Assembly (NCBI RefSeq): GCF_001434665.1
Contig: NZ_AZDG01000009.1
Coordinates: 22,322 to 86,321 of the forward strand
Source: Companilactobacillus tucceti DSM 20183
GTDB taxonomy: Bacteria; Bacillota; Bacilli; Lactobacillales; Lactobacillaceae
DNA: 64,000 nucleotides
Reading direction: 5' to 3'
Of this stretch, positions 9,122 to 50,419 are shown piece after piece. The notes under the pieces were generated by a model. That model ran no database searches. It had not been told where the DNA came from and worked only from the letters and a program-made list of their open reading frames with translations. Within the stretch, counting starts at the first letter, position 1. Every line of letters begins with the position of its first letter. The position numbers were made by a program, and so were the translations under genes.

Positions 9122-9233
9122 GTGCAATGATACACAGCTTTTTCCGCTTAAAGCAAAAGATCCTATCAATCTAAAATCGGATTGATAGGATCTTTTACCT
9201 TAATGCTCGAAAGCTGAACGTGTATCATTGCAC
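9122..9233 (-). repeat. Family A nested-stem repeat, copy A1
   Basis: Outer arms GTGCAATGATACAC (9122-9135) and its exact complement (9220-9233) enclose AGCTTTTTCCGCTTAA on one side and TTAATGCTCGAAAGCT on the other. These enclose an inner stem of about 15 bases (9157-9171 with 9180-9194) with apex AATC...GATT. The end nearest the lectin gene stops eight bases after its stop codon. It separates the two lectin paralogues. Confidence 0.85.
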
Positions 9234-9240
9234 TCTTTTT

Positions 9241-11670
9241 TTAATTATTTCCAATTACGTCTGATGTTGTCCAAGTGAGTGTACCAGTATAATGACCGAC
9301 TGGACTTAATCCTAATTGTTTTAAAAGTAATCCAGTATCACTGGTCCAGTTTCCTGAAATATTATCAGTAGTACTTGTAGTATATGATTGATTGTTTGTT
9401 GCGACGATTACTGGTGTTTCGCTGACATTCATGTAATCAGAATCGTTATCTTTTTTATAAACTAGGTTCATATTTTTATTAAGACTATTATCGGAATTAT
9501 ATAATCCTTTTGATGTAACTGATAATTGCCATGGCTCGCGTAAGCTAGTTACACTTAAATTGAAATCGGAAGTACGTTTTAGATAGGTTGACTGATTACC
9601 GTAATGAATATTTTGAAAAGCTAAGCTATCTGAAACGTTCAACGTAAGTGACTTATCCGGTAGAACATTAACGTTGTAAGTAACTGCATTAGATACTAAT
9701 CCGTTAGTTCTATCGATTGCCGTAACTTTAACTTGTTGAGTAGAGTTAACTGGGAATACGTCCCAGAAATTATCTCCAGCACCTTCAATTAATTGTTTTA
9801 TATCCATAGTTGAAGAAGTTGTTTGACCAGTTTGAAGACTTAAATCTTGAGCGGCAGTGTAATTATGATCTCCAATAGATAAGTTGAAAACAATATCTGA
9901 TCCTTTAAGATCACTTGGTGCGTTACTACTATATCCTAGATTAAGATTTGAACTTAAACCAGCATTTTCATTCTTATATAACAAGTCGTATTCAGTTTTA
10001 TCTGTGCCAAGAACTAAACTGTAATCTTTTTTGGCCAAAATGGTGAAAGCAGGAGAACTCGTCATTGCAATACTATTTGTACCTGTAAATGAAGCGGGTG
10101 CTTGTTTTACGTTGATATCACTTGATATCTCGTTCACGGCAGTTACTGAAATAGAAATTTTAGCGGAACTATTATTTGTATCGAGTTCTTTTGCCAAAGT
10201 ATATTGAAGATTTCCTCCAACGATATCATCTTTAGATATCTTAGTTGGACTTTGACCATCACCATAATCTATAGTAGCAATGTTCTCATTAGCATCAGGC
10301 TTTAAAGTGACGTTATCAGGAATTTTTATTTTAGAAGCAATTGATTTCCAGGATTCCTTACCACGTATATAGTTAAGATTATAATTTAATGATAAATCGT
10401 CACCATTAGAAACGGTTTTATCTGTGGAGCTGTCTATGATAGTTTTGTTTAAAGTTTTATCAGTGATCGATGCACTTACATCAGAAGTAGGTGATTCAGG
10501 GATTGAATCAAAAGCCACTAGTTTAGTAGCAACTAAATTAGATGTACCATTTGCTCCTGTAAAGCCCCAGCGAACTAAATTATCTGTTGCGTTTAACTTG
10601 GTGGTATCAATATCTATAGTTTTTGTAGTAGGGGTTTTCTCTAGTCCTTCCTTAGTTATGTCATTAAAAGCGTAAGAAAGTTTTGCAATATTAGATCCAG
10701 ATGGTGCTGGTGTCCAATCGATGGTTACGTGATGCCAGTAGACTGGATTATTTGATGAGTCAGTATAATCGGTTAAATCAGCTAATTGTGAGTCTACATG
10801 AACCATGACTGTTGCTTTATCAAATCCGGGATAGTTACTATTGATGTTTGAATCGATACTTGTTTGATAATAGGTTCCAGCAAAAGCGGGATAGATTACT
10901 GCTATATTTCCGTACCGGCTAGCACTTCCATATGTTAGGGTGCCCGGTATTCCAAGCGAAGAAGGTGGCGTTGTCCCTAATTGAGTATCATAAGCATTTT
11001 GAGAAAAAGTAGTTCCGACAAGGGGAATCCCACTTGAGCTCATATTTATGGGAGCATTTTTGGAGTTATACATGTTGTTTTTTGCCGTATCAAATTCTAG
11101 TGCAACGCTGTTTTGGATGGCTGAATTTTGCATGAAAGATACTTTTTCTGAATAAGTATTAAAGACACTAGATGTAGATTTGTCGAAACCATATGCGCCT
11201 ATACCGTCTAATCCAGCACCTAATGCACCATTACCACGGGCATCATTTTGAAGAACGAAAGTGATACCCTCACTGTTTATATCGTCCTCACCGTTACCAG
11301 ATCCAAAATACATCCATGCTGAAATAGTTTGAGGTTTAGTAATATCAAAAGTTTTTTTTGTTGACCAAAGTGATCCGTAGGTATTCTTACCATTTGCTAG
11401 AGAAATTATATTTCCATCGGTAGAGTTATCACCAGAGTGATCAACTATTTGAGCTGAATTAGTTTTAAAAGGACTTCCCGATACGGGAGTTGGAGTGGAA
11501 TTTGACATGTATTGGCTGAGTGGGAGCCCATTAGGGGCTTCTTTTAAAACAGCCAAATCAGTGCTACTGGTTAAAGTAGCGGAAACGTTAGTGGCATTAG
11601 CCGTTACTATAACAAAAATGCTCATGAGGATAATAGATCCCCATAAGCTCAGTAGATATTTTTTCCTCAT
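9241..11670 (-). CDS. Secreted L-type lectin-like protein with C-terminal WxL domain, paralogue 2
   Basis: An 809-residue paralogue of the downstream gene with the same architecture: signal peptide (residues 1-31, ending NVSA), lectin-like domain with QTISAWMYFG and EGITFVLQND, spacer region, and WxL domain with REPWQLSV and TGTLTWTTSD. The C-terminal halves are nearly identical in places (for example NVKQAPASFTGTNSIAMTSS in both), while the lectin domains differ much more. That pattern is expected if ligand specificity has diverged or if conversion keeps the anchor half alike. The start ATG at 11670 follows GGGAGGG. A family A repeat lies directly after the stop codon. It is located at the cell wall; the ligand is unknown. 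Confidence 0.88.
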   Translation of the reverse strand: MRKKYLLSLWGSIILMSIFVIVTANATNVSATLTSSTDLAVLKEAPNGLPLSQYMSNSTPTPVSGSPFKTNSAQIVDHSGDNSTDGNIISLANGKNTYGSLWSTKKTFDITKPQTISAWMYFGSGNGEDDINSEGITFVLQNDARGNGALGAGLDGIGAYGFDKSTSSVFNTYSEKVSFMQNSAIQNSVALEFDTAKNNMYNSKNAPINMSSSGIPLVGTTFSQNAYDTQLGTTPPSSLGIPGTLTYGSASRYGNIAVIYPAFAGTYYQTSIDSNINSNYPGFDKATVMVHVDSQLADLTDYTDSSNNPVYWHHVTIDWTPAPSGSNIAKLSYAFNDITKEGLEKTPTTKTIDIDTTKLNATDNLVRWGFTGANGTSNLVATKLVAFDSIPESPTSDVSASITDKTLNKTIIDSSTDKTVSNGDDLSLNYNLNYIRGKESWKSIASKIKIPDNVTLKPDANENIATIDYGDGQSPTKISKDDIVGGNLQYTLAKELDTNNSSAKISISVTAVNEISSDINVKQAPASFTGTNSIAMTSSPAFTILAKKDYSLVLGTDKTEYDLLYKNENAGLSSNLNLGYSSNAPSDLKGSDIVFNLSIGDHNYTAAQDLSLQTGQTTSSTMDIKQLIEGAGDNFWDVFPVNSTQQVKVTAIDRTNGLVSNAVTYNVNVLPDKSLTLNVSDSLAFQNIHYGNQSTYLKRTSDFNLSVTSLREPWQLSVTSKGLYNSDNSLNKNMNLVYKKDNDSDYMNVSETPVIVATNNQSYTTSTTDNISGNWTSDTGLLLKQLGLSPVGHYTGTLTWTTSDVIGNN

Positions 11671-12160: not shown

Positions 12161-15100
12161 TTGAGACAAAAAGTGACCAACGGTGATGTTAAGAAGAGAT
12201 TCATATTATATAAGGGACACACCGGTTGGAAAATCAAGACGAGAATATTTGGTGGTTTACTAGTAAGCTTTTCAGTATTTGCGATTGCTGAAAGTATGGG
12301 AGTCGTTGATGCCCATGCATCAGCTGTAACAACACAAACTACTATGTCAAATAGTGCTGCGGAGTCACCGGTGCCAACAGGAGATAGCGCTGGTGATACG
12401 ACCGAAAGTACATCTAATACAACAAGTAATACCTCAAAAAATCAACCGGTAGCACAAGCTACTGCGCAAACACAACAGGGCAGTACAACACAAGATAGTA
12501 CGAATGCAACTAAGTACCCAGTTTTATCCCAGAATCAAAATGTTAGTGTCGGTGCTGACACATCGACTGTTAATCTAACATCTGATCAAATTGCAGGGCA
12601 CTTTACCGCTAACGTTGAAAATAGAGATGGCGGGGATTCGGATTCTGATGCTGCTGATAACACACACAATATTCAAATTGGTTCTGATGGTTCTGTTGAC
12701 CTTACAACACTTGGGGATCATCAGTATTATTCTTCACCTGGCAGATCAAGTTCTATATCAGGACACCAGTCTGCTCACGTTTCATTCGAACATGAAATCG
12801 ATTTTGGACATAATTTTGATATGTCAGGAGCTTTAGGTATTGGTAGTAAAAGTTCCGGTGGTGCTGACAGTGTTGGCTTTATCTTTGCACCAGGAGATCC
12901 TGCTGAAGCTACTAAAGGTGGCTCTGGTGGACAATTAGGCCTTGGTGGTTTGAGTAATGCCTTTGGATTTGTTTTTGATGAATATTATAATAGCAACTTT
13001 AATGATCCTAGTACATATAGTTATAACTATCCATATATAGGTTGGAGAACAACTGATTCATCTGGTAGTTTGCAAAGTACCAATACTGGGGATGTTCAGT
13101 CATCTAGTAACTTGGGACTAACTCGTAGTTCACAACCAGTTAATGATTTTACAATGCACTACGATGCTTCCACACAAATGTTAACTGTTACATTAAACGG
13201 AACATCTTTTAGTCGCCACATTGATGATATCAGTACTGGTTATTCACTTTCAGTTGCCGCTTCAACCGGTGGTAGCTTGAATGATTATTCTGCTAAAATA
13301 AGTAGCTTTAGTTATACACCTAAGACGATTCCATTAACAATTAATTTGGTTGATTCAGCGGATCAAGGAGCTTTATTAGATAAAACAAACGTTAAAGCTG
13401 TCGCCAATATCGGTGATACTATTTCAATTTTCTCAACTCAAGCTGCTGCAGATCGTGCCGTTGCAGATGGTGAAGTTGATCCTTCATTAGTAGCGGTTAT
13501 ACCAACAGATTCAGCTGGTAATGTTTATGTGATCGATAGTAGCAAAGTTGTTTCAAATAATAACGGAACGGTCCACGTTATCAAGGACGAGGATGGTATT
13601 GCAGATAGTACTTACTATAGTTATACAGTTACGGATGCTGATAATCAGCAGATGACAGTTCCGGTGAGATTGGCTTTTAAAGCGAAGGTCACTCCCGTTG
13701 ATTCCACAACTAAAAAGCCTATTAGTGGATTAGATCCAGTGACAGTAGTGGCAGTTGACGGTAAACCGATTCTGGTTCAAATTCCAGGATATACACCTAC
13801 ATCGGTTATTTTAAATAAACCCGCTGATGGTCAGGCAATAGCCGACGATGTTTTACCAATTGATCAAGGTACAACTAATACAGATACATCAACGACTACA
13901 GGTACGGCTAATCCAGTAGGACATTATTACACTGGAACAGGTAAAACAGTTGACGGTAAATCCGTTGTAGATAATGCTACCGTCGGAACAGGTCAATCAA
14001 TTTCTGATACTTTAGATAAACAAGCTTACCAGGATTCTAAGGGCAATGCTGTAGCTAGTGGTGGAAAAACTGCTATTAATAGTGATGATTATTATTGGTC
14101 AGATGTTGGTAACGCTAATGCAACCGATTCTCTAGATAGTACAAAACCTCAAAGTGTCGATAGTATTCTTTTACCAACTACTGCCACTTTAGATTATTGG
14201 GAACAACAAGCTACCGCTAATCAAACTAAAGCTGACGATTATAAACAACAAGCTCAAACCATGTATGATACTTTTGTTGGTTTGTCAGGCCTAACTACGG
14301 CTCAAAAAGCAGCCGCTGATAAATTATTACAATCAGTTGTTAATATTTATGAAGAAGTTTCTGATAAAAACGGGCAAGCTAAAGCCGCTTTTGAAAAAGG
14401 CAAGACAGATACCGCCGCTACAGATATTTATAACGATGGACAAACTGGCTATGAAAACCTGGAAGCCGTTAAAAACTTATTGATCAGTTTTAATGATGAT
14501 CTGACATCTTTGAAAACAACTAATAAGGATGCACAAAACAGTTTGGCAACATTTGACTCATGGAGTGTAACTTATGGTGATGATAATGGATTCCCTAATG
14601 TCAGTTTTGGTCCGGATTTTGGAACCCCTACTACCGCTCAAATTCAAGGCTTAGATAATCCAAATTATTATCAGTTTTATACTTGGGGTGCTTCAGGTAA
14701 AGGTGATACTCCCGTTACTCCAAAAGATGTCGGTCAATATGTTTTAATGCTGACTGATGCTGGACGTACTTACTTAAAGAGCTTGAGTACGAATGATAAT
14801 GCCGGACTTTATGTTTCCGGCGTTTTAACGATCAATCCAAAGAGTGTTGAAGCGAATGTCAATAATTTAACAGTAGCATATGGAGATACTCCGGTTTTGA
14901 GTGGCAATGTAGATACGATTAAGACAGATGCAACTGATTTGGAAATATTTGATAATGCAGCAAACAAAGTAGTCACAGCTAACCAATTGCAAGCTGGCGG
15001 AGACTATTCAATTAGATATACAGACAAAGCTCAAACCGATTTAAGTAAAGGAAATTATACTATTACGACATTCAACACTGGGAAATTAACAGTTACTAAA

Positions 15101-18100
15101 CGTCCATTGACTGTGACAGTTCCAAAGGGAATATATGGTAAAACGTACGGTGATAGTGATAATAGTGAACCTGAATTTGTTGGCACTACTGACGACTTAG
15201 TCAATGGTGATACTTTGGAAAGTATTGGCGTTAAGTTATCTAGGGATCATGGTGATGATGCTGGTGAATATCCAATTAATATGGATCCTTCAATAAAACT
15301 TTCTGATATTAAAAATTATGATGTCACTGTAGTACCAGGTACTTTTATTATTGGTAAAAAGCCAGTTACCGTAACAGCTGATAATTTAGGTAAAGTTTAT
15401 GGGGAAAAAGATCCAGAACTTACTTTTGACAGTATAAAAGACGGTTCTCTTGTTGGTGATGACACTAAGTCTGCTTTAGGTGTGACTTTGGAGCGTGTTA
15501 AAGGTGAAGATGTCGGAACATATGACATAACTGGTACTAGTGATAGCAAGAACTATAATGTGACGATAAATCCTGGTACATTCACGATTGCAAAAGCACC
15601 AGCTGATATCGATATAACTCCAAAAACAATAACTTATGGTGATGCACCAACATTTGCTTGGAGTGTGGATCATACTGATGCAGTTGATAATTTAACAGCA
15701 GATGATTTTGAAGTTGTTGATTCCACAGGTAAAGCAGTGGATTCTAAATTCCAAGTTGGTGAAGATTATAATATCCAACTAAAAGATGGTGTACTAAAGA
15801 CTCTTAACGACGCTAATTCTAATTATGAATTTAGTGCTCCGAAAGTGGCAAAATTAACCGTAGATCCAAAGAATATTACAGTTACAGCTTCGGATAGCCA
15901 TAAAACTTATGGTGATGCTGATCCAAGTGAATTCACTTTAACTGATGATTCCGCAAAAGGTTTAGTAAATGGCGATACACTTACAAGCTTGGGTGTTAAA
16001 TTAAGCCGTGATAAGGGCGAAGATGTTGATACATACGGCATAAATAAAGATGTTTCTTCAACTCTAAATAAGAATTACAACATTACAGTTACACCCGGCA
16101 CATTTACTATCAATAAAAAGAACATTACAGTGACAGCGGCTGATAGTACTAAGGTTTACGGCAACGATGACCCTACATTTACATTGACTGTTGACTCTGC
16201 TAAACGACTTGTTAATAATGATAAATTAACTGATTTGACGGTTAATTTAACACGTGTAGCAGGGGATGATGTCGGAGATTATGCAATAAGTGGAACGGCA
16301 ACGAACCCTAATTACGAAATCACTGTAACTCCAGGTACATTTACTATTACAAAGGCAGATGCTAGTTTTGACATCGGTCACACTGACGTGGTTTATGGTG
16401 ATACTCCTATATTTACTGGAACATCTAAAGCTAATGATTTTACTAATAATTTAGATTCAACTGATTATGAGATTTTTGACTCTGATAATAATAAAGTGGC
16501 AAATACTGACTTGAAGGTTGATGGTCAATATACTATTAAATTAGCAGATGGCGCTTTAAACAAATTAACTTCAGCAAATAAGAATTATAGTTTCAATAAC
16601 TTTAATGGAAATACATTAGCCGTTACACCAAAAGAAATTGTTGTTACAGCTGATAATAATAGTAAGACTTACGGAGCAGATGAGCCTAAGCTCACTTTAA
16701 CAAGTAATTCAGCTGATGAATTAGTGAACGGCGACACACTTGAAGACTTGGGAGTTAATTTAGTCCGTAATACTGGCGAAGATGTTGGATCCGATTATGC
16801 GATTAATCTCGATAAGTCGTCTAAATTGAATGACAATTACAAGATCACAGTCAATCCAGGAACGTTTACAATAAATCCACTTGCAATTACAGTTACTGCA
16901 GCAGATAACAGTAAAGTTTATGGATCAACTGATCCAGAATTAACTTTGACTCCTGACTCAGCTAAGGTACTTGTAAATGGTGATGAACTTTCAGATTTAG
17001 GTGTTAAATTAGTACGTGCAGACGGTGAACATGCCGGAACTTATGCTATTAAATTAGACGATTCATCTAATTTGGATAAGAACTATGAAATCACAGTCAA
17101 CTCAGGAACATTTACGATCAAGCCTGCTGCTGTTACAGCTGACAGTATCACAATTGAACCTACTAAAGTTGTTTATGGTGATACACCTAACTTTGTGAGT
17201 GATATAAATGTCGGTGGAGTTTCTAACACTCTTGAACAAAGCGACTATGAAATTGTGGATCCAAACGGAAACGCCGTAACTACTAACTTACAAGTTGGTG
17301 GAACTTACTTTGTTAAATTAAAAGCTGAAGCATTAGACAAACTTCATGATGCAAATCCTGATTATACTTTCAATAACCCAGAACGAGCAGAACTCACTGT
17401 AACTCCAAGAGATATTACAATTACTGCTGACAATAGTAGTAAAGTTTATGGAAATACTGATCCAACTAAGTTCAATTTAACAAAGGATTCAGCTGATGGA
17501 TTAGTAAACGGTGATACTCTTGACAGTTTAGGAGTTAAATTAAGTCGAGTCGCTGGTGAAAATGTTAATGACTATGCAATTAATCTCGATAATCCATCTG
17601 ATTTGAATAATAACTACAATGTTACTTTCAAAGCAGGTAAGTTTAGTATTACAAAGAAACCAGTAACAGTAATTGCTGAAGATAGTAGTAAAAATTATGG
17701 TGATAAAGATCCAGAATTAAAATTAACTGACGAATCTAGCGATGTTCTCGTAAAGGGCGATAAACTTTCAGATTTAGGAGTTAAATTAAGTCGTGTTGAT
17801 GGTTCTGATGTTGGAACATACGCCATAACTGGTACTGTTAATAGCGCTAACTACGATGTTACAGTTACACCTGGGACATTTACGATCAAACCAGCATCAG
17901 CTAGTGTAAAAGTGAATGATTCAAAGATGACTTACGGAGATAAGCCTAGTTTTTTAGCCACACCTAGCGTTGGTAAAACAACATTCAGCCAAGATGATTT
18001 TGAAATTCTAAAAGATGGGAATGTCGTTAATAAAGCTGACTTACAAGCTGGAAGTTACGATATTAAATTGACTGATGTAGCTATAAATAGATTGAAATCT

Positions 18101-19426
18101 GAAAATCCTAATTATAGTTTTGGCGATGACTCAATTAATACGGCTACATTGACTGTTGCAAAGCGTCCAATCGTTATTACAGTTGATAATCAGACAGTAT
18201 ATGTTGGTCAAGACGATCCTGAAAATAAGGCTATATTAAGAAATCCTAGAATCGGCGATAATAATTTATTAAATAGTCTACATTTAAGTTATCAAGAACC
18301 TGATGCTACAACAGTTGGTGCATATGATATTAAAGCATCAAGTGACAATCCTAATTACGATATCACTATTGTTCCCGGACAATTAACTGTTTTGGGTAAA
18401 GATACTGACAAAGATGGAAATGTTACGATAACTCAAAAAGATAAAGATGGAAATGTTGTTAAAGTAACAAAGGAATGGAACAATGATGGAAATAAACAGA
18501 CTGTCTACAATTATGACCCTACAACAGGTACAAAGACTGTTAGTGAATCTGATGATGGCAAAGAAGTTGAGAACCAAACTATCGATCCTACTAAAGGTAA
18601 GGCAATTCTTCCAGATGAAGATGGTGCTGCAACCGTTGTAACTACTGATGATTCTGGTGAACCAAAGATCATCCATTATACATCTGATCCTGATAAGGAC
18701 GGATTAACTAGTGCAGATGAATTGATCAAGTATGGCACTGATCCTCTAAATCCCGATACAGATGGAGACGGAATTAGTGATGGTGATGAAGTTAAAAATC
18801 ATACAGATCCTTTGGTAGCTAATATCTCTAATGATGATTCAGCAAAAATAGTCAAGAAGAATCAAACAGTTGGTACTACAACTAAGACGGTTAAGTTATA
18901 TAACAGAGACGGCAAATTGATTTCTGATAGAATGCTTGGAATAAATACCGATTGGCTCAGTGATGAAGAATATACTTTAGATGACGTTCTTTATTACCGT
19001 GTATCGACAAATGAATTTGTTAAAGCAAGCAATGTTTATGTATATCTTTATCAAGGACCAACATTTATTAGAGTATATAATAATGAAAAAGGTGATTTGA
19101 TCAATTATACTGGAGCTCCTGTTAGTCGAAGTTTAAGACCAAGTACTGAATGGAGAACTGACAGAATTGCGGTTATAAATGGTCGAAATTATTATCGTGT
19201 ATCAACAAATGAATTTGTTCCAGTCGAAGAAGTTTATGAATACGAAAGTGTACATAATAATATAACTACTGACGAACCAACTACCGTTTACGATGAACGT
19301 GGCAATCAAACTGGAGTTGTACTACCAGCTAATGCCGCTTATAAAGTAGATAAAGTTGTAGTTATCAATGGGGATGTTTATTATCGAGTTGCAACGAATG
19401 AATTTATTAAAAATGATGTAAAGTAG
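12161..19426 (+). CDS. Giant secreted adhesin: KxYKxGKxW-like signal, lectin, MBG repeats, TSP3, SLAP
   Basis: The protein has 2421 residues. The N-terminus has RFILYKGHTGWKIK before a hydrophobic stretch ending AHA, resembling the KxYKxGKxW signal peptides of accessory-Sec substrates. A Ser/Thr/Gln-rich linker is followed by an L-type lectin domain (about residues 135-390, with DSVGFIFAPGDP). Residues 400-680 are spacer and 690-800 are probably helical. Roughly residues 800-2080 hold alternating MBG-type repeats marked by (K)(T/V)YG and VYGDTP signatures; I count about eight of the first kind and six of the second. Around 2180 lies a TSP3-like calcium motif (DTDGDGISDGDE). Three C-terminal SLAP-type modules marked YYRVSTNEFV suggest noncovalent wall binding; no LPxTG is present. 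The TTG start has a good ribosome site eight bases upstream. Confidence 0.88.
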   Translation: MRQKVTNGDVKKRFILYKGHTGWKIKTRIFGGLLVSFSVFAIAESMGVVDAHASAVTTQTTMSNSAAESPVPTGDSAGDTTESTSNTTSNTSKNQPVAQATAQTQQGSTTQDSTNATKYPVLSQNQNVSVGADTSTVNLTSDQIAGHFTANVENRDGGDSDSDAADNTHNIQIGSDGSVDLTTLGDHQYYSSPGRSSSISGHQSAHVSFEHEIDFGHNFDMSGALGIGSKSSGGADSVGFIFAPGDPAEATKGGSGGQLGLGGLSNAFGFVFDEYYNSNFNDPSTYSYNYPYIGWRTTDSSGSLQSTNTGDVQSSSNLGLTRSSQPVNDFTMHYDASTQMLTVTLNGTSFSRHIDDISTGYSLSVAASTGGSLNDYSAKISSFSYTPKTIPLTINLVDSADQGALLDKTNVKAVANIGDTISIFSTQAAADRAVADGEVDPSLVAVIPTDSAGNVYVIDSSKVVSNNNGTVHVIKDEDGIADSTYYSYTVTDADNQQMTVPVRLAFKAKVTPVDSTTKKPISGLDPVTVVAVDGKPILVQIPGYTPTSVILNKPADGQAIADDVLPIDQGTTNTDTSTTTGTANPVGHYYTGTGKTVDGKSVVDNATVGTGQSISDTLDKQAYQDSKGNAVASGGKTAINSDDYYWSDVGNANATDSLDSTKPQSVDSILLPTTATLDYWEQQATANQTKADDYKQQAQTMYDTFVGLSGLTTAQKAAADKLLQSVVNIYEEVSDKNGQAKAAFEKGKTDTAATDIYNDGQTGYENLEAVKNLLISFNDDLTSLKTTNKDAQNSLATFDSWSVTYGDDNGFPNVSFGPDFGTPTTAQIQGLDNPNYYQFYTWGASGKGDTPVTPKDVGQYVLMLTDAGRTYLKSLSTNDNAGLYVSGVLTINPKSVEANVNNLTVAYGDTPVLSGNVDTIKTDATDLEIFDNAANKVVTANQLQAGGDYSIRYTDKAQTDLSKGNYTITTFNTGKLTVTKRPLTVTVPKGIYGKTYGDSDNSEPEFVGTTDDLVNGDTLESIGVKLSRDHGDDAGEYPINMDPSIKLSDIKNYDVTVVPGTFIIGKKPVTVTADNLGKVYGEKDPELTFDSIKDGSLVGDDTKSALGVTLERVKGEDVGTYDITGTSDSKNYNVTINPGTFTIAKAPADIDITPKTITYGDAPTFAWSVDHTDAVDNLTADDFEVVDSTGKAVDSKFQVGEDYNIQLKDGVLKTLNDANSNYEFSAPKVAKLTVDPKNITVTASDSHKTYGDADPSEFTLTDDSAKGLVNGDTLTSLGVKLSRDKGEDVDTYGINKDVSSTLNKNYNITVTPGTFTINKKNITVTAADSTKVYGNDDPTFTLTVDSAKRLVNNDKLTDLTVNLTRVAGDDVGDYAISGTATNPNYEITVTPGTFTITKADASFDIGHTDVVYGDTPIFTGTSKANDFTNNLDSTDYEIFDSDNNKVANTDLKVDGQYTIKLADGALNKLTSANKNYSFNNFNGNTLAVTPKEIVVTADNNSKTYGADEPKLTLTSNSADELVNGDTLEDLGVNLVRNTGEDVGSDYAINLDKSSKLNDNYKITVNPGTFTINPLAITVTAADNSKVYGSTDPELTLTPDSAKVLVNGDELSDLGVKLVRADGEHAGTYAIKLDDSSNLDKNYEITVNSGTFTIKPAAVTADSITIEPTKVVYGDTPNFVSDINVGGVSNTLEQSDYEIVDPNGNAVTTNLQVGGTYFVKLKAEALDKLHDANPDYTFNNPERAELTVTPRDITITADNSSKVYGNTDPTKFNLTKDSADGLVNGDTLDSLGVKLSRVAGENVNDYAINLDNPSDLNNNYNVTFKAGKFSITKKPVTVIAEDSSKNYGDKDPELKLTDESSDVLVKGDKLSDLGVKLSRVDGSDVGTYAITGTVNSANYDVTVTPGTFTIKPASASVKVNDSKMTYGDKPSFLATPSVGKTTFSQDDFEILKDGNVVNKADLQAGSYDIKLTDVAINRLKSENPNYSFGDDSINTATLTVAKRPIVITVDNQTVYVGQDDPENKAILRNPRIGDNNLLNSLHLSYQEPDATTVGAYDIKASSDNPNYDITIVPGQLTVLGKDTDKDGNVTITQKDKDGNVVKVTKEWNNDGNKQTVYNYDPTTGTKTVSESDDGKEVENQTIDPTKGKAILPDEDGAATVVTTDDSGEPKIIHYTSDPDKDGLTSADELIKYGTDPLNPDTDGDGISDGDEVKNHTDPLVANISNDDSAKIVKKNQTVGTTTKTVKLYNRDGKLISDRMLGINTDWLSDEEYTLDDVLYYRVSTNEFVKASNVYVYLYQGPTFIRVYNNEKGDLINYTGAPVSRSLRPSTEWRTDRIAVINGRNYYRVSTNEFVPVEEVYEYESVHNNITTDEPTTVYDERGNQTGVVLPANAAYKVDKVVVINGDVYYRVATNEFIKNDVK

Positions 19427-19432
19427 GAGAGA

Positions 19433-19544
19433 GTGGGACAAAACATGTTCAACTTTCGAGCATTAAGGCAAATGACTCCAGTAATCCGATTTTGGATTAC
19501 TGGAGTCATTTGTATTAAGCGGAAAAAGTTATGTTTTGTTCCAC
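19433..19544 (+). repeat. Family A nested-stem repeat, copy A2
   Basis: It begins six bases after the stop of the giant gene (GAGAGTG). The arms GTGGGACAAAACAT and ATGTTTTGTTCCAC pair with one G-T wobble. The core reads AACTTTCGAGCATTAA and TTAAGCGGAAAAAGTT, where the usual AGCTTT/AAAGCT stem is changed on both sides in a compensated way. The inner stem is AATGACTCCAGTAATCC with its complement (19471-19510). Confidence 0.85.
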
Positions 19545-19689
19545 GTTTATGCTGCATGTTTAAGGGAAAATGGTTTTACCACAGCCCCTGTTTTTGATTT
19601 CTAACTTTTGTTGCACTCTTTTGCTGTGTTACAATTTACAATTAAGTAGAAATAACGCAATTCTAATTGCGAGAATTCAAGGTAATAAA

Positions 19690-21371: not shown

Positions 21372-22958
21372 ATGACAAAGGAAAACGAAACTCCACGTAA
21401 GCATAAACTTATCCAATATGCTAACGGTCCTTCTCTAGAAGAGATTAACGGGACAGTTTCAGTACCAAAGGATAAAGGATTTGTAAAAACATTATTGGCT
21501 TATTCAGGACCAGGTGCACTAGTCGCAGTTGGTTACATGGATCCAGGTAATTGGTCAACTTCAATTACTGGTGGTCAAAATTTCCAGTACTTACTAATGT
21601 CAGTTATTCTAATTTCTAGTTTAATTGCCATGTTATTACAATATATGGCAGCTAAACTAGGGATTGTAAGCAGTATGGATTTGGCGCAAGCCATTAGAGC
21701 CAGAACGAGTAAGGCATTAGGAATCGTTTTATGGATTTTAACAGAGTTTGCGATTATGGCGACAGATATTGCCGAAGTTATTGGTGCCGCAATTGCTTTG
21801 TACTTGTTATTCCACATACCATTAGTTATCGCGGTATTCATTACCGTTTTAGATGTTTTAGTTTTGCTATTATTAACAAAAATTGGATTCAGAAAAATCG
21901 AAGCAATTGTTGTTTGCTTGATTTTAGTCATTTTATTCGTATTCGTATATCAAGTCGCTTTATCAAACCCTGATTGGAGTGGAGTATTCGGTGGATTGAT
22001 TCCAACATCAAGAACCTTTTCAACTAGTGAAAAGATTGCTGGTATGACTCCATTAAGTGGTGCTTTAGGTATTATTGGTGCTACTGTTATGCCTCATAAT
22101 TTATACTTGCATTCAGCTATTTCACAAACACGTAAAGTTGATCATAATGATGAAGAATCTGTTGCTAGAAACGTTAAGTTTTCAGCTTGGGATTCAAATA
22201 TTCAATTAACGGCCGCATTTTTCGTTAATGCCTTGCTATTGATCATGGGTGTTGCCGTATTTAAGACAGGTGCTGTTAAAGACCCTTCATTCTTTGGATT
22301 ATATGAAGCATTGTCAGATACTTCTACATTAAGTAATGGAATTTTAATTGGCGTTGCCAAATCAGGTATTTTATCAACACTATTTGCCGTTGCCTTATTG
22401 GCATCTGGTCAAAATTCAACTATTACAGGTACACTTACAGGACAAGTTATCATGGAAGGTTTCGTCCACATGAAGATGCCTCTTTGGTTGAGAAGATTAG
22501 TTACACGTTTGATCTCAGTTATTCCAGTTTTGATCTGTGTTATGTTGACTAGTGGAAAGAGTGCAGTTGACGAACATACAGCATTGAATAACTTAATGAA
22601 TAATTCACAGGTATTCCTAGCTTTCGCTTTACCATTTTCAATGTTGCCATTATTGATGATGACAGATAGTGCTATGGAAATGGGTAACAGATTCAAGAAT
22701 AGCCTATGGGTCAAGGTTCTAGGTTGGTTATCAGTTATCGGATTAACAATATTGAACCTTATAAGTTTGCCTGATCAAATTTTGGCATTCTTCGGTGATC
22801 ACCCAACAGCAGGTGATGTAGATGCCTCAAAAATTATTGCTTACATTCTAATTATTGCCGTATTGGCATTGTTAGTTTGGACAGTTGTTGATTTGCATCA
22901 TGGTAATAAGAGATTAGCAGCACAAGTAAAAAGTGAAAAACTTGCCGCTGAAGAATAA
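21372..22958 (+). CDS. mntH: Nramp-family Mn2+ transporter
   Basis: A 528-residue polytopic membrane protein that imports Mn2+ with protons. The metal-binding segments are clear: MDPGNW in helix 1 (Asp57 and Asn60) and MPHNLYLHS in helix 6 (Met240 and His242); the Met is the residue that favours Mn and Fe over Ca or Mg. About eleven membrane helices are visible, with a cytoplasmic N-terminal tail of some 45 residues. It follows usp in an apparent operon and lies near a DtxR-family regulator. Lactobacilli use high manganese against oxidative stress, which matches the neighbouring yaaA. A family A repeat starts three bases after the stop. Confidence 0.94.
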   Translation: MTKENETPRKHKLIQYANGPSLEEINGTVSVPKDKGFVKTLLAYSGPGALVAVGYMDPGNWSTSITGGQNFQYLLMSVILISSLIAMLLQYMAAKLGIVSSMDLAQAIRARTSKALGIVLWILTEFAIMATDIAEVIGAAIALYLLFHIPLVIAVFITVLDVLVLLLLTKIGFRKIEAIVVCLILVILFVFVYQVALSNPDWSGVFGGLIPTSRTFSTSEKIAGMTPLSGALGIIGATVMPHNLYLHSAISQTRKVDHNDEESVARNVKFSAWDSNIQLTAAFFVNALLLIMGVAVFKTGAVKDPSFFGLYEALSDTSTLSNGILIGVAKSGILSTLFAVALLASGQNSTITGTLTGQVIMEGFVHMKMPLWLRRLVTRLISVIPVLICVMLTSGKSAVDEHTALNNLMNNSQVFLAFALPFSMLPLLMMTDSAMEMGNRFKNSLWVKVLGWLSVIGLTILNLISLPDQILAFFGDHPTAGDVDASKIIAYILIIAVLALLVWTVVDLHHGNKRLAAQVKSEKLAAEE

Positions 22959-22960
22959 GA

Positions 22961-23069
22961 GTGCAACTCAGCATGCCCAGCTTTCGAGCATTAAGGCAAA
23001 TAAGGACAGTAATCCAACGGATTACTGTCCATATTTGTATTAAGCGGAAAAAGCTATGCTGAGTTGCAC
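22961..23069 (+). repeat. Family A nested-stem repeat, copy A3
   Basis: Perfect 14-base outer arms GTGCAACTCAGCAT (22961-22974) and complement (23056-23069) enclose AGCTTTCGAGCATTAA and TTAAGCGGAAAAAGCT and an inner stem of about 12 bases, GGACAGTAATCC with its complement. It begins directly after the mntH stop. Confidence 0.88.
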
Positions 23070-23112
23070 GTTTAAGTAGCAAGTTTGAGGATAAAGATAA
23101 AAGGTGAATTCG

Positions 23113-23154
23113 TTCCTATTTGTATTAAGCATAAAAAGCTATGCTGAGTTGCAC
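23113..23154 (+). repeat. Duplicated 3' half of family A copy A3
   Basis: This stretch repeats the distal half of A3 (TGTATTAAGC, two changed bases, AAAAAGCT and the same arm ATGCTGAGTTGCAC) without a second left half. The single left arm of A3 could pair with either copy. Confidence 0.75.
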
Positions 23155-23212
23155 ATTTAGGTAACGAATAAAAAATTATGTCACAGTCGCCTTTTTCGTC
23201 TAAAATAAAATC

Positions 23213-24064: not shown

Positions 24065-25195
24065 ATGACGTGGTCTGATTGGCAATTACCACCTTTTGTA
24101 ACGAGTGTTTTCTTTATACTAGGTGTCTTTACTTTATATTGGGTTACTTATAATTGGATTATTTCTTGGGTACATTCACGACATATGGACGTTTCGGATG
24201 ACCTTGTTAATGGATGGTATGGTGTTCTCTACATGCTAGTGTTTGTATTCAGTATTCAAACGTTAGTAGTTGGTAAAAGTACATCGTGGCAGTTTATGAA
24301 TTTTCAGTTATTAGCAATTACATTTTGTGCATACTTCTTAAATATCCATGTTCCATACTACTTTTTCGGTCCAATCGTTTTAGTTTATATGGTATTTAAT
24401 CAATCGTTAGGGTACTGGCAATCTTGGGGCCATGCGATAACTTTGATGGCATTTTTCTGGACACTCAATTTTGTTCGACTTAGATTCCATAATCTAAAAA
24501 TCGAACCCTTTGTTTATATGATTACTGTAATTGGATATGGAGGTCCATTGTGGACTTGGATGAAATTTAAGTTTAACTTCACCTGGTCTACATTTTGGCA
24601 AGAATGGTTATACATGACCATTTTTGAAGCACTGTTATACATTTACATAACGATGTTATCTCATGATTCTGAAGTAAAACTACAATTGGAAAAGTTTGCT
24701 AGTCACGACGCTTTGACTCAAACAGGTAATTTTGCGGCCTATAAAGATGATATTGAATGTCTCTTTAGTGATAGTGTTAAAAAAGAGCGGCCTTTGTCGA
24801 TGATGATGTTTGATATTGATCATTTTAAAAATATTAATGATACATACGGACATTTAACGGGTGACCATGTATTGCAACAAGTTTCTTCAGTCGTACAAAC
24901 CGTTTTAGATGCCAATGATAGTAAGGTTTTGTTTTACCGTACTGGTGGTGAGGAATTCAATGTTGTTTTCCCCGGATATACGGTTAATGATACGAAAATA
25001 ATTGTTAATCAAATCTTTATAGCGATAAATCATTTGCAAATTCATTCTGGAGTAAAGCCCGTAAGTGTTTCGATATCTGTTGGGGTATCTGAATTGACTT
25101 CAGATGATAAAACTTCAATGGATTTCTATAATCGTGTTGACCAAAACTTATATTATTCAAAGCGTAATGGGCGTATGAGAGTCACAGTAGCATAG
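24065..25195 (+). CDS. Membrane diguanylate cyclase (GGDEF), copy 1
   Basis: This 376-residue protein has about six membrane helices in residues 1-200 and a GGDEF domain from about 215 to the end. The domain has MMFDIDHFKNINDTYGHLTGD and RTGGEEFNVVF, with the intact catalytic signature GGEEF at residues 294-298, so synthesis of c-di-GMP from two GTP is expected. No RxxD product-inhibition site is seen at the usual place just before the signature. The ATG at 24065 is chosen over the one at 24044 because GAGGAAGGG lies between them. The input domain is membrane-embedded with no recognised ligand fold. It has its own terminator; a second cyclase lies at 28924. Confidence 0.92.
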   Translation: MTWSDWQLPPFVTSVFFILGVFTLYWVTYNWIISWVHSRHMDVSDDLVNGWYGVLYMLVFVFSIQTLVVGKSTSWQFMNFQLLAITFCAYFLNIHVPYYFFGPIVLVYMVFNQSLGYWQSWGHAITLMAFFWTLNFVRLRFHNLKIEPFVYMITVIGYGGPLWTWMKFKFNFTWSTFWQEWLYMTIFEALLYIYITMLSHDSEVKLQLEKFASHDALTQTGNFAAYKDDIECLFSDSVKKERPLSMMMFDIDHFKNINDTYGHLTGDHVLQQVSSVVQTVLDANDSKVLFYRTGGEEFNVVFPGYTVNDTKIIVNQIFIAINHLQIHSGVKPVSVSISVGVSELTSDDKTSMDFYNRVDQNLYYSKRNGRMRVTVA

Positions 25196-28335: not shown

Positions 28336-28352
28336 TTAAGAGGTAATTGAAG

Positions 28353-28667: not shown

Positions 28668-28670
28668 AGA

Positions 28671-31745: not shown

Positions 31746-31763
31746 TAAACATGCAGCTTAAAC

Positions 31764-31873: not shown

Positions 31874-31884
31874 TCTCTACAGCT

Positions 31885-33186
31885 CTATTTCCTTTTCATA
31901 TGACGTTCAGGGCTTTTCCAAGTACCTTGTCCATATCCCATAATGGTTTTTATTGCTGGTATAAAGGTTGTAACTACAGAAAGTGCATTTACTTGCCAAT
32001 AGACTAATGAATAAAAAGGCATGAACATTAGATATTTAAACTTGGCTGCTTTACCATCAATTATTAAAGCTGCGGCTAATTGCATAACTCCGGCTATCAT
32101 TTCAAAGGTTAGAAATACAAATGACATTGCAAATAAGAAAATCACTTGTTCTAGATTTCCAGTAAAAATGAAGCCGACTAATGATCCTAGAAAAAGCATT
32201 AAACTTATGAAATAGAAAAATGACCAGACGGTACTAAAGGTTTGATCTACTAAAAATGCTATTTGGCGAATGTATTTTAGAGGATGGAGGAATATTTTCC
32301 AAAAATTTGCTAACCAAACTTCTGTCCCGCCTTTAGCCCAAAGTTTTCTTTGATGGTATAAGCTCTTTAAGTCGTCAGGAACATTCATATAAAATACAAT
32401 ATTTGGAGCAAAAACGGTTGACCAGCCACTGATTTGATGGTCCCAGGCAATACTAATATCTTCGGTTGCACGATCTTGTCTGAATAATCCAACATCGATC
32501 AAAGCGTCACGGCGATACATTGTATTGGCTCCGCTATAAGCGTACATATTTCCAAAAACACCAATTTGGCTTCGCTTGATTATGCCAACGATACTAGAAA
32601 ATTCAACGGTTTGAGATTTAGAAATAATCGTATCTCGATTTAAAACATCTGTGTTGGCCGTTACGGCGGCAATATTTTGTCCTTCAGAAGTATCAAAGTA
32701 ATTCATATATTTCCAAATAGCGTCTGGTTCAGGTAGTGAGTCGGCGTCGTTACTTAGAATAAATTCCCCTTTAGTAAAAGCAATGCCAATATTAAAAGCA
32801 TGAGCTTTACCTTGGTTCTTTTCGATACGGATAACTTTTAAATTTTGATATCTTAACATCAGATGTTTCAGTATTTCAGGGGTTTGGTCTGTTGATCCAT
32901 CATCTATGACTAATACTTCATAGTTAGAATAATTCAAGTCATTCATTAAATAATTGATTGTATGTTCGATCATGATTTCTTCGTTATGAGCCGGGATCAT
33001 GATCGTTACAAATGGTTGAATATTTTTATCTATATGTTTGTAATTTTTGATTTTGTGGGCATAGAGAAATTGATAGCAGATAGTTCCGATCATCCAACAA
33101 AATGAACCTAATATTGGGTATGAAATCAAGATCAATAACAGAAAATTAGCCACAGAATCAAAAACTGAGATTCCTGTTTTGATCAT
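31885..33186 (-). CDS. Processive family 2 glycosyltransferase, PgaC/IcaA-like
   Basis: A 433-residue membrane glycosyltransferase. One or two N-terminal helices precede a GT2 domain (about residues 58-290) with VTIMIPAHNEE, VIDDGSTD, SNDADSLPEPD, the acceptor-site motif ATEDISIAWD and HQRKLWAKGG in the QxxRW position. Three or four C-terminal helices probably form the polymer channel. The layout matches PgaC/IcaA poly-N-acetylglucosamine synthases, though other beta-linked polymers are possible. Its start overlaps the end of the upstream small membrane gene by four bases, like icaA-icaD/pgaC-pgaD partners. No deacetylase (icaB/pgaB) or export gene adjoins it. Confidence 0.85.
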   Translation of the reverse strand: MIKTGISVFDSVANFLLLILISYPILGSFCWMIGTICYQFLYAHKIKNYKHIDKNIQPFVTIMIPAHNEEIMIEHTINYLMNDLNYSNYEVLVIDDGSTDQTPEILKHLMLRYQNLKVIRIEKNQGKAHAFNIGIAFTKGEFILSNDADSLPEPDAIWKYMNYFDTSEGQNIAAVTANTDVLNRDTIISKSQTVEFSSIVGIIKRSQIGVFGNMYAYSGANTMYRRDALIDVGLFRQDRATEDISIAWDHQISGWSTVFAPNIVFYMNVPDDLKSLYHQRKLWAKGGTEVWLANFWKIFLHPLKYIRQIAFLVDQTFSTVWSFFYFISLMLFLGSLVGFIFTGNLEQVIFLFAMSFVFLTFEMIAGVMQLAAALIIDGKAAKFKYLMFMPFYSLVYWQVNALSVVTTFIPAIKTIMGYGQGTWKSPERHMKRK

Positions 33187-35828: not shown

Positions 35829-35890
35829 AAATGGTTAAAATCTTTTATTGATTGAAAGAATAGTATATATTTTAAATATGTAGCGTAGAC

Positions 35891-36000
35891 GTGTAATAAA
35901 GCACAGTTTTTTTCGTTTAAAAAAGGACCCAATTAATCCAAAATCGGATTGATTGGGTCCTTTACCTTAATGCGCAAAAGCTGACCATGCTTTGTCGCAC
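35891..36000 (-). repeat. Family A repeat, decayed copy A6
   Basis: Arms GTGTAATAAAGCAC and ATGCTTTGTCGCAC pair with two wobbles and two mismatches. The core is AGTTTTTTTCGTTTAA and TTAATGCGCAAAAGCT, also changed from consensus. The inner stem (AAAGGACCCAATTAATCC with its complement) is still perfect. It is the one copy whose CACTCT end faces a gene start (gpx) instead of a stop codon. Confidence 0.75.
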
Positions 36001-36022
36001 TCTTACAGAAGGGAGTATCTCC

Positions 36023-39570: not shown

Positions 39571-39739
39571 GAAATCATGAATAATTCCACCTGTTGTGTG
39601 GACGTCTTCAGCCAAGGTCTGAAGACTCACTTTGAAACTTTGCATAATTCGTAAATTTTCAAAGATGCCAGTGGAGTAAGGTCGGAAGTTCATCGACCTA
39701 ACTCCACTTTCACAACTGGTTCCATTATTCATGATTTTC
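39571..39739 (+). repeat. Family B cloverleaf repeat, copy B1
   Basis: The closing stem pairs GAAATCATGAATAAT (39571-39585) with ATTATTCATGATTTTC (39724-39739), then GTTGTG with CACAAC. Inside are three hairpins: GTCTTCAG-CCAAGGT-CTGAAGAC; a long one around CTTTGC; and AGTGGAGT...ACTCCACT enclosing GGTCG/CGACC. An ORF crossing it is only a shadow of the repeat. Confidence 0.85.
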
Positions 39740-39784: not shown

Positions 39785-39817
39785 AAAAAAGGCCTGACAT
39801 TTTTGTCAGACCTTTTA
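39785..39817 (-). terminator. Bidirectional terminator between marR-B1 and def
   Basis: AAAAAGGCCTGACA pairs with TGTCAGACCTTTT around TTTT. On the minus strand it runs into six T residues after the deformylase gene, and on the plus strand into TTTT. Confidence 0.8.
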
Positions 39818-40225
39818 TATTAAAATCCCGTCCAGATGATCTATTTCATGTTGGATAATTTCAGCTACAAAATCACTGAAATCTTGTTTTTGTGGTTTAA
39901 ATGAAGCATCTGAATAAGTAACTGTAATGTGTTTGAATCGTTTAGTTTTTCTTTCACCAATTAGCGATAAGCATCCTTCTTCAGTATCATAAGAATCACT
40001 CTTTTTGATAATTACTGGATTTATCATTGGAATGGCCATGTTACCTAATTGAAAGGCAATGATTCGTTTGTTTATACCAATCATATTTGCAGCCATTCCT
40101 ACGCAGTCTTCTTGGTGTGATTTTAGTGTGTCTATTAAATCAGTTATAGCCTGACTATCTTTGGGGGTTGCTGGTGTAGATTTTTGTGAAAGTAGAGTTG
40201 TATCTTTGTTGATTTGTTTGATCAT
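39815..40225 (-). CDS. def: Peptide deformylase-like protein
   Basis: A 136-residue protein with deformylase motifs EGCLS (Cys85) and QHEIDH (His126 and His130), the three ligands of the catalytic metal. Motif 1, normally G-x-G-x-A-A-x-Q, reads VGMAANM, with Met48 where the conserved active-site Gln is expected. The protein is also shorter than Lactobacillus Def (about 185 residues). It may be a second deformylase with altered activity rather than the housekeeping enzyme, which normally lies elsewhere. The start ATG follows AAAGGAG. It stands alone. Confidence 0.82.
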   Translation of the reverse strand: MIKQINKDTTLLSQKSTPATPKDSQAITDLIDTLKSHQEDCVGMAANMIGINKRIIAFQLGNMAIPMINPVIIKKSDSYDTEEGCLSLIGERKTKRFKHITVTYSDASFKPQKQDFSDFVAEIIQHEIDHLDGILI

Positions 40226-43320: not shown

Positions 43321-43335
43321 TTAGTGTTTTGTGAG

Positions 43336-43465
43336 ATTTTGAGTAATTCCACCTGTTGTGCGATCGACTTCAGCCGAGGTCTGAAGTCTCGATTTGAAGC
43401 TTTGCTTACGCAAATCTTCGAATCGTCGGTGGAGTAAGAACGCACGCGTTCAACTCCGCTTACTA
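43336..43465 (+). repeat. Family B cloverleaf repeat, copy B2, truncated at its right arm
   Basis: It begins with GATTTTGAGTAATTCCACCT and GTTGTG. The hairpins are GACTTCAG-CCGAGGT-CTGAAGTC (43366-43388), GATTTGAAG...CTTCGAATC (43391-43424) around CTTTGCTTACGCAAAT, and GGAGT...ACTCC (43431-43457). The expected CACAAC closing arm is absent; the sequence passes into half of a family A element at CCGCTTA. Confidence 0.8.
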
Positions 43466-43545
43466 CGGATAATAAATATGGCATAAATCGCCATATCTAT
43501 TATCCTAGGTAATGCTCGGAAGCTAACCGCTTTTTTTATTGCTCT
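43456..43545 (-). repeat. Family A half-element fused to B2
   Basis: CCGCTTA, an inner stem GGATAATAAATATGGC with its near complement (43467-43505), then TAATGCTCGGAAGCT and GCTCTC, which touches the stop of the minus-strand ArsR gene. The distal outer arm is missing because B2 occupies it. Confidence 0.75.
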
Positions 43546-43905
43546 CTAATTGTCATTTTCGTCTTCCACAATATGTTCCTTAGTCTGATTAAAAATAGTA
43601 ATAATATGCTGATCGCTAAGTCGATAGTGAATATTACGTCCTTTTCTCATACTTGAAACTAAATTCAACTGTTTTAACAAGCTCAATTGATGGGAAATAG
43701 ATGATTGGCTCATTTCTAGTGAATCGGCTATTTCACCGACACTTAATGGTGTTTGTGACAGTGCCAATATGATCTTGACTCTGGTCATATCACCGAATGC
43801 CTTGAAGACGTTGACCATAGCCTCTAGTTCGTCATTATTGGGGATTTCGTTATTCAAATTGTTTAGAGATTTTATGTGTTCTTTTTCGAAATTATTATCT
43901 GTCAT
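43546..43905 (-). CDS. ArsR-family metal sensor, SmtB-like alpha-5 site
   Basis: The 119-residue repressor has the recognition helix in MSQSSISHQLSLLKQL and an alpha-5 metal site D98-x-H100-x10-H111-x2-E114, the Asp/His/His/Glu set of SmtB. An N-terminal extension of about 25 residues lacks cysteines, so there is no CadC-type alpha-3 site. It is divergent from the P-type ATPase gene with a shared operator region and should lift repression when zinc rises. The start ATG follows AAAGGCG. Its alpha-5 set differs from the CzrA-like set of the ArsR protein at 28353. Confidence 0.9.
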   Translation of the reverse strand: MTDNNFEKEHIKSLNNLNNEIPNNDELEAMVNVFKAFGDMTRVKIILALSQTPLSVGEIADSLEMSQSSISHQLSLLKQLNLVSSMRKGRNIHYRLSDQHIITIFNQTKEHIVEDENDN

Positions 43906-49390: not shown

Positions 49391-50230
49391 ATGAAGAAAT
49401 CAGTAAATATAATTATCACTATTTTGGCCTTATTCACATTGGCCGGATGTAGCAACTCTTCTTCAAAACCGACCCAAGAGACAAAAGTAGTTAAAGATTA
49501 TTCATATCAGAAAAAAGCATCAAAACTAAACAAGCAAAACAAAGCTCTGAAGTCAGATATTAAGGATCTTCAAGATAAGATTACGAAGAATGAAGACTTT
49601 TTAACTGAAAATGATCAAGGAAAGTTTAGCAATAATAGTTCTGATACATCTAAGGATAATTTGGCTAATCTCGACTATACAGGTACTCAAGAAATAGTTG
49701 TTAATAATAATCAGCCGGAATTTTCTGATGATGATAAATCAACTGCTAATGGTGCTTGGCAAACATATGGCGATCTGGATAATCTAAATAGAGCAACGTC
49801 TGCTAACGCTTTATTAAATGTTTCTCTGATGCCAACAGCCAAAAGAGAAGGACTAACTTGGAATCCAACTGGTTGGCATAATAAAAAAATCAGTTCAGGT
49901 TGGCTCTATAATCGTAGTCATTTGATTGGTTACCAATTAACAGGGCAAAATAATAATCCTAAGAATTTAATGACGGGAACACGTTCGTTGAATAGTCCTG
50001 AAATGCAGGCACATGAAATGGATATTGCTTATTATCTAAAACAAAGCAGTAATCATTTTGTTAGATATCGAGTAACACCAATTTTTCGTGGAGATGAATT
50101 GTTAGCACGTGGTGTTCAAATGGAAGCACAATCAATTGGTGATAACGAGGTTCAATTTAATGTTTATATTTTTAATGTTCAATCAGGAGTAACCTTGAAT
50201 TATAACGATGGAACTAGTCAGGTTGGATAG
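49391..50230 (+). CDS. Lipoprotein DNA/RNA non-specific nuclease, EndA-like
   Basis: The 279-residue protein has a lipoprotein signal ending LAGC (Cys19), a coiled region (residues 40-75) and a nuclease domain with YNRSHLIGYQLTGQNNNPKN and LMTGTRSLN, the beta-beta-alpha metal site of EndA/NucA (usually DRGH; here NRSH, which keeps the catalytic His). Surface nucleases of this kind degrade DNA for uptake in competence or for nutrition. It is the last gene of the operon that starts with thrE-like genes or with the coiled-coil protein. No competence genes lie in the window. Confidence 0.88.
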   Translation: MKKSVNIIITILALFTLAGCSNSSSKPTQETKVVKDYSYQKKASKLNKQNKALKSDIKDLQDKITKNEDFLTENDQGKFSNNSSDTSKDNLANLDYTGTQEIVVNNNQPEFSDDDKSTANGAWQTYGDLDNLNRATSANALLNVSLMPTAKREGLTWNPTGWHNKKISSGWLYNRSHLIGYQLTGQNNNPKNLMTGTRSLNSPEMQAHEMDIAYYLKQSSNHFVRYRVTPIFRGDELLARGVQMEAQSIGDNEVQFNVYIFNVQSGVTLNYNDGTSQVG

Positions 50231-50288
50231 GTAATATTGTAAATGTGAATCGATTGAACTGCTATAAAGTTATATATGCGGCGTAAAC

Positions 50289-50419
50289 GTGAAACAAAAC
50301 ATAGCTTTTTCCGCTTAAAATAAATAGTCCCAACAATCCAAAATCGGATTGTTGGGACTATTTCCTTTAATGCTCGAAAGCTGGGCATGTTTTGTTTCAC
50401 TCTGTTTTGTTTCACTCTG
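50289..50419 (-). repeat. Family A nested-stem repeat, copy A7, with duplicated arm
   Basis: Perfect outer arms GTGAAACAAAACAT (50289-50302) and complement (50387-50400), core AGCTTTTTCCGCTTAA and TTTAATGCTCGAAAGCT, and inner stem AAATAGTCCCAACAATCC with its complement. The right arm end TGTTTTGTTTCACTCTG is repeated in tandem (50403-50419). The TGA stop of the minus-strand hydrolase gene lies inside this duplicated GAGTGAAAC. Confidence 0.87.

Follow-up and report, generated by a model that had tools for sequence, protein, structure and literature searches.

We analyzed an intergenic repeat, family A, all six annotated copies of which are present in a 64-kb stretch of Companilactobacillus tucceti DSM 20183 (64,000 nucleotides, referred to here as the window). 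The element is a palindrome of approximately 150 nt. On balance, and with modest confidence, our data favor a non-autonomous mobile element that resides at the gene terminator and folds as a long mRNA hairpin on the gene-sense strand. Such an element would land at the terminator hairpin of a gene and would be transcribed in full with the mRNA of that gene, in which one long hairpin is predicted. Some factor would mobilize it in trans, while its copy-specific arms would be kept complementary by gene-sense selection and by recopying of one arm from the other. If this is true, a mobile hairpin rewrites the 3′ end of mRNA at dozens of gene ends, and sister species would differ at these ends as a result.

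Read in gene sense (i.e., on the strand of the gene that ends at the element), a copy consists of the stop codon, AGAG, an outer arm, a 4-nt bulge, and a core stem, followed by a fixed internal loop (CGAGCA against GCGGA) and an inner hairpin, beyond which the strands return in mirrored order and lead to CGTTTA and a tail. The outer arms sit between fixed GYG and CAY. An initial annotation of the window had described six copies sharing one plan, with outer arms that differ between copies and yet remain paired, and we located all six, flanks included. The outer arms are perfect in four copies, carry one mismatch in the copy initially placed at 19433, and carry four mismatches in the copy placed at 35891. 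The compensated core-stem changes are likewise real (AACTTT/AAAGTT at 19433 and AGCC/GGCT at 31764). With up to three mismatches allowed, a 16-base block matched the window 8 times compared to a mean of 0.83 in shuffles, and 0 of 100 shuffles reached 8.

In gene sense, copies on the minus strand occupy 9094-9241, directly behind the stop of open reading frame (ORF) 9241-11670 (-) and with perfect outer arms; 31736-31881, behind the stop of the glycosyltransferase gene 31885-33186 (-) at a convergent site; and 50261-50408, behind the stop of 50412-51539 (-), where the end of the outer arm is duplicated beside the stop. The decayed copy at 35863-36008 (-) is an exception to the stop-codon rule described below, and no called gene ends there. 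Copies on the plus strand occupy 19425-19572, behind the stop of ORF 12161-19426 (+), and 22953-23097, behind the stop of 21372-22958 (+), which is an mntH-like Mn2+ transporter gene. The latter copy is followed by a tandem half copy at 23112-23163 (+) that comprises the 3′ core, the outer 3′ arm, and the tail.

Copy number and covariation of the arms

The genome that holds the window (G000; 2.17 Mb in 51 contigs) contains 53 strict copies, i.e., matches to a two-block pattern at the right spacing, and 0 matches to the reversed pattern. We built a covariance model from 35 copies, 34 of which had been chosen by the strict pattern or by their naming in the initial annotation (strict copy L030 was left out). 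The model gave 135 matches in the genome at E <= 0.1, and removal of palindrome mirror matches, sister-family matches, and fragments left 77 good copies (bit score >= 94.9).

The stems of the 35 aligned copies are paired in 93.9% of cells compared to 79.8% in shuffled alignments, and 244 cells are changed on both sides compared to 68.7 in shuffles. These double changes are spread over 31 of the 48 pairs, one-sided changes in the arms are few, and sliding the partner strand by one to three columns lowers pairing to 28-45%. The 77 good copies show 64 different outer and 67 different inner 5′ arms, with outer stems that are fully Watson-Crick in 31 copies and inner stems in 27. The claim that copy-specific arms covary thus holds, since paired double changes lie far above the controls. 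The initial annotation had further read this covariation as the signature of selection on a folded nucleic acid. Our data support a constraint on the fold; selection is probably not the sole cause, as part of the complementarity is likely mutational (i.e., hairpin-templated copying).

Copies with a diverged core are still paired, with 90% of their pairs Watson-Crick. We rejected the idea that pairing decays with core divergence, as 162 copies gave no clear trend (Spearman P 0.13; detection favors paired copies). Two family A copies, L122 and L123, lack the inner hairpin and keep the outer stem.

Position behind stop codons and the folded strand

We found that in 71 of the 77 copies the gene on the 3′ side of the element, as written on the initially annotated strand, is encoded on the opposite strand, with its end facing the element. 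The initial reading of a covarying fold therefore stands with its strand corrected: the annotated strand is antisense to the gene, and the relevant strand is its reverse complement. A stop-codon scan showed that, in 63 of the 77 copies, a frame of 70 or more codons ends between -11 and +19 nt relative to the stem, and gene calls, made by ORF only, placed 62 within -12 to +20 of a stop. Random intergenic placement would put 4.8% near a stop, with this null taken from the window gene calls only. Both neighbors were called for 75 copies, which divide into 43 between convergent genes, 27 + 5 between co-directional genes, and 0 between divergent genes. Similarly, 65 of 85 distinct copies from other species have a nearby ORF end (at least 100 codons), at a distance of between -12 and +19 nt in 53 of these 65.

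The 63 stops are TAA (40), TAG (22), and TGA (1), a usage not clearly different from that of window genes (27, 18, and 4), and in 16 of the 63 copies the stop is a TAG fused to the AG or AGAG of the element. Ordinary terminators share this place, with 6 of the 10 found here starting 0-17 nt behind a stop. Since 26 of 27 co-directional copies lie ahead of gaps of 73-970 nt, these elements are not inside tight operons. Furthermore, one unit on an Enterococcus faecium plasmid starts directly behind a tRNA-Met gene, which indicates that the anchor is the end of a gene and not translation as such.

If the initially annotated strand were the one that folds, G.U should exceed A.C among its imperfect pairs. 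We found the opposite. That strand carries 84 A.C and 43 G.U in the copies of this genome (P 3e-4) and 137 A.C and 45 G.U in the 85 copies from other species (P 5e-12); counting distinct arms only, the A.C:G.U ratios in other species are 56:30 (outer) and 53:14 (inner). The skew extends across genera, with 51 A.C and 21 G.U in 30 of 31 aligned rows (mirror row dropped; P 5e-4). Because A.C on the annotated strand is G.U in gene sense, these data suggest that the gene-sense strand is the one kept folded, and it is probably folded as mRNA. The outer-arm mismatch of the copy at 19433 is a wobble in the RNA of this same strand. The skew is weaker, though not significantly so (P 0.16), in copies with a diverged core (41:23 compared to 180:65), and one fixed core pair runs opposite to it (T.G on the annotated strand) and is read as part of the internal loop. 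The G.U/A.C skew provides a test for the folded strand that needs sequence only.

Turnover at gene ends and range across genomes

We compared syntenic stretches from two relatives, G018 and G005, for window genes with a hit. The mntH-like gene (91-94% amino acid identity) ends at family A in the window and at ordinary terminators in both relatives, and the end of 12161-19426 (77%) carries family A in the window, an inverted family A in G018, and a terminator in G005. Behind 31885-33186 (87-88%) the window has family A, G018 a family C-like element, and G005 none, while family A behind 9241-11670 (67%) has no counterpart in G018. The full copy behind 50412-51539 (86%) corresponds in G018 to a copy without its 5′ half, which is the one truncated orthologue of family A that we observed. 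G018 carries family A behind 39815-40225 (87%), where the window has a terminator, and behind 28924-30132 (86%), where the window has no element; 43546-43905 (99%) ends at a C-like element in the window and at a terminator in G018.

An automatic search for filled and empty sites with both flanks returned 10 rows, of which 7 were tandem-copy or array artefacts and 3 were real, and all three real empty sites carry a stem-loop. Family A also occurs at the same stop in a relative for seven queries (L031, L053, L056, L058, L090, L100, and L103), loci that had been fetched because they hold family A. Tandem half copies follow 12 of the 77 copies by motif count. We rejected two accounts of how such sites arise. 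The outer arms are not retained target stems, as fixed GYG and CAY bracket them and the empty sites read do not have them. A retroposition-like 5′-truncation is not favored, as both halves of the core gave similar numbers of exact hits among the matches listed (67 and 62).

A search of related genomes revealed further copies in abundance. The collection searched comprises one genome per species for 84,980 species, possibly without the entries closest to the window. Over this collection the exact core pattern occurs in 61 stretches, 60 from Companilactobacillus and one from a metagenome-assembled genome of an uncultured Lactobacillus. The covariance model matched 35 of 60 relatives (own genome included), i.e., 34 of 36 in the genus and one elsewhere, with 1 to at least 52 copies per matching genus genome. 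A scan of the order at E <= 1e-6 found matches in 25 of 295 genomes and 14 of 74 genera (own genus included; 13 further). Most sequences read from these genomes (8 + 20), when oriented in gene sense, begin with an AGAG-like stretch, contain a loop of GAGCA-like and GCGGA-like strands, and end in GTTT; several lack a close stop, and some (e.g., L221) resemble a plain hairpin. In a cross-genus alignment of 31 rows, which was fitted to the model and so is biased towards it, double changes occur in 44 of 46 pairs and pairing reaches 89.8% compared to 56.8%.

Matches extend to plasmids as well. Plasmid DNA similar to a locus of family f3 is present in 53 records (51 Enterococcus, 1 Klebsiella, and 1 Lactococcus), a locus of family f5 resembles one Aerococcus record, and the model matches these f3- and f5-like plasmid records at E 1e-9 to 1e-6. 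On a second E. faecium plasmid (L230), four or more units that differ in their arms form a tandem array, which begins at the asnS stop and occupies 2328-3313; its joints read GTTTA and then AGAGG. The copy at 9094 had no DNA matches in plasmids and phages. Through the model, repeats from lactobacilli, enterococci, and aerococci are united in a single structural class. We suggest tentatively, and with low confidence, that such elements are selfish and RNA-shaped across Lactobacillales: they would replace terminators at gene 3′ ends, ride on the mRNA, and have their arms recopied, with a mobilizing factor that recognizes the fixed gene-sense internal loop and not the arm sequence.

Alternative explanations and related repeats

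Several observations weigh against a mobile element at the terminator. The copies are kin, so the P values given above are optimistic, and 14 of the 77 copies fail the stop-codon rule. Neither movement nor a target-site duplication was seen, none of the three real filled/empty pairs shows a clean insertion (all are replacements), and the shared copies at orthologous stops fit slow as well as fast turnover. A pattern of retained terminator halves is weak, occurring behind 8 of 75 copies compared to 2 of 75 in the control. The flanks of the inner hairpin are equally rich in T (6.4 and 6.4 of 12). In several other genera a complete terminator follows the element, so the element need not replace terminators. 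Finally, no mobilizing enzyme was found in a search confined to the Y1 and reverse transcriptase families.

The element shares its place behind the stop with the intrinsic terminators of the same genomes, and one terminator in G018 has the apex of the family A inner hairpin (CCAGTAATCC...GGATCACTGG). Compared to such terminators, family A adds an outer stem, a fixed internal loop, conserved ends, and its repeat nature. When inner hairpins were scanned in gene sense with a simple terminator search, 72 of 75 passed; we rejected the inner hairpin as a terminator specific to gene sense, as its two sides are alike in T content. In one locus (L027) an ordinary terminator lies between a family A and a family B element.

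These properties also suit a reading that we consider unlikely, namely that family A is a host-useful module of the 3′ end, in which the inner hairpin would act as a two-way terminator and the long stem would protect the mRNA against 3′ exonucleases or slow ribosomes at the stop, with copies spread by recombination rather than transposition. In Escherichia coli, REP elements within 15 nt of a stop are reported to stall ribosomes (PMC12306157). The 63 of 77 copies within 19 nt of a stop, the 72 inner hairpins that pass the scan, the occupation of sites where relatives have terminators, the 90% Watson-Crick pairing kept in diverged-core copies, and the location of 26 of 27 co-directional copies outside tight operons are all in line with a useful module. 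However, rapid loss and replacement at orthologous ends suggests that no single gene needs the element, and the T-rich stretch is not strand-specific. Furthermore, ribosomes are irrelevant to the unit behind the tRNA gene, and in other genera a complete terminator is retained after the element.

We regard as improbable that the element serves in recombination as an attC-like or HUH-like site, at which single-stranded DNA would fold and an enzyme would bind the fold of one strand. A strand skew would arise equally for one DNA strand, and both the bulge with its fixed asymmetric internal loop inside a covarying stem and the tandem units, in L160 and behind asnS on the E. faecium plasmid, would suit such a site. 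Against this, the Y1 domain was not found in G000, with a linked recombinase sought within two families only, and the ends are not a complementary pair. attC sites carry a complementary R-box pair at their two ends, and we rejected an attC-like site, as AGAG and CGTTTA are not complementary in the alignment, judged by eye.

More improbable again is that the complementarity is mainly mutational, arising from quasi-palindrome correction in which one arm templates the other under slight selection on the fold. In L117 the 5′ core is present on each strand, which makes a perfect palindrome, and the outer palindrome of L101 extends into its flank, two cases in which one arm looks like a copy of the other. 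The scarcity of one-sided changes in the arms points the same way, as do the half copies, which in the cases read carry the arm letters of the neighboring copy. Yet the internal loop and bulge stay asymmetric in nearly all copies, with L117 the only match in an exact search of the loci for a symmetric loop or bulge, and a skew towards G.U on one strand would not be expected from templated repair alone. The likeliest account of the matched arms would be gene-sense selection plus recopying.

According to the initial annotation, no described family was known to match. Comparison with Rfam, Lacto motifs included, gave no match at the gathering score in the window and only a tRNA in 18 further loci, and when five sources were scanned at laxer settings, the one match obtained lay far below its cut-off. 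We found no published description of family A, its strand, or its order-wide core in the literature searched, which excluded most subscription journals. In kind, the element is nevertheless not new: its orientation to gene 3′ ends, its absence or replacement at orthologous sites, its sister families, and its order-wide relatives, Enterococcus included, fit the known palindromic miniature insertion elements, and family A fits with REP- and EFAR-like elements. The nearest published repeats are Efa-1 and the palindromic repeats of enterococci that are known as EFAR, whose empty sites are reportedly stem-loops; enterococcal palindromic repeats were the subject of De Gregorio et al. (2009, FEMS Microbiol Lett 292:7).

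Family A is probably kin to these enterococcal repeats. In a comparison that covered units from genomes and plasmids, its model matches E. faecium plasmid units, the tandem array included. Efa-1 of Enterococcus faecalis is listed as 163 nt with 65 copies and described as a pair of adjacent hairpins (PMC2267715). The enterococcal repeats and Efa-1 resemble family A in being intergenic, palindromic, and approximately 160-170 nt long; the two hairpins described for Efa-1 differ from the one two-storey hairpin of family A.

REP elements of the GTAG and CGTC classes are palindromes of 20-40 bp, one end of which bears a GTAG or CGTC tag that stays unpaired. They lie near the 3′ ends of genes, where the neighbors are co-directional or convergent, and in the GTAG class they often provide a TAG stop (PMC3733652). 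Family A matches their placement (43 convergent, 32 co-directional, and 0 divergent of 75), and its TAG-AG joint in 16 of 63 copies can be likened to the stop supplied by GTAG REPs as described there. In contrast to REPs, family A is approximately 150 nt long, has AGAG and CGTTTA ends without a GTAG or CGTC tag, and has copy-specific arms around a fixed internal loop. We found no match to the Y1 transposase domain PF01797 in G000 or in G002, G006, and G009 (each with at least 49 copies), while the reverse transcriptase domain PF00078 has 0 matches in G000 and is present in 12 of 36 genus genomes. We rejected a RAYT-driven REP on the absence of PF01797 from G000, and an element driven by reverse transcriptase or a group II intron on that of PF00078. 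Family A makes it testable what moves palindromic elements in which no transposase of their own is apparent.

Sister families B and C have the same ends as family A, an equivalent internal loop, and other arms. A family B element at 28663-28809 (+) lies directly behind the stop of ORF 28347-28667 (+), and one or more family C-like elements at 43333-43545 (-) lie behind the stop of 43546-43905 (-). Repeated palindromes with copy-specific arms at 39571-39655, 43333-43417, and 56447-56510 (D12 and D17), at least one of which is behind a stop, are probably family C. Family B has 19 copies found in the loci of this genome, one of which is a chimera (L093, 93-243) in which the gene-sense start of family B is joined to an antisense family A copy. 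Eleven family B copies lie within approximately 300 nt of a family A copy on the opposite strand, head to head with one element per convergent gene, in loci that had been chosen for family A. Long family B hairpins also stand behind stops in L035, L041, L045, L047, L090, L095, and others, frequently facing a family A copy head to head.

Several neighboring genes in the window are themselves repetitive. ORF 12161-19426 (2421 aa) contains internal repeats of approximately 250 and 760 nt (D1, D3, and D5; 15308-18391) and resembles a repetitive surface protein without an NCBIfam match. The minus-strand ORFs 6483-8993 and 9241-11670 are paralogous, with identity of up to 89% between the 300-nt stretches 6476-6775 and 9234-9533 (D2), and the second of them terminates at a family A copy. 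Finally, two genes near the PgaC/IcaA-like glycosyltransferase gene 31885-33186 share a stretch (24791-24886 and 29698-29793) that resembles a GGDEF domain in its motif.

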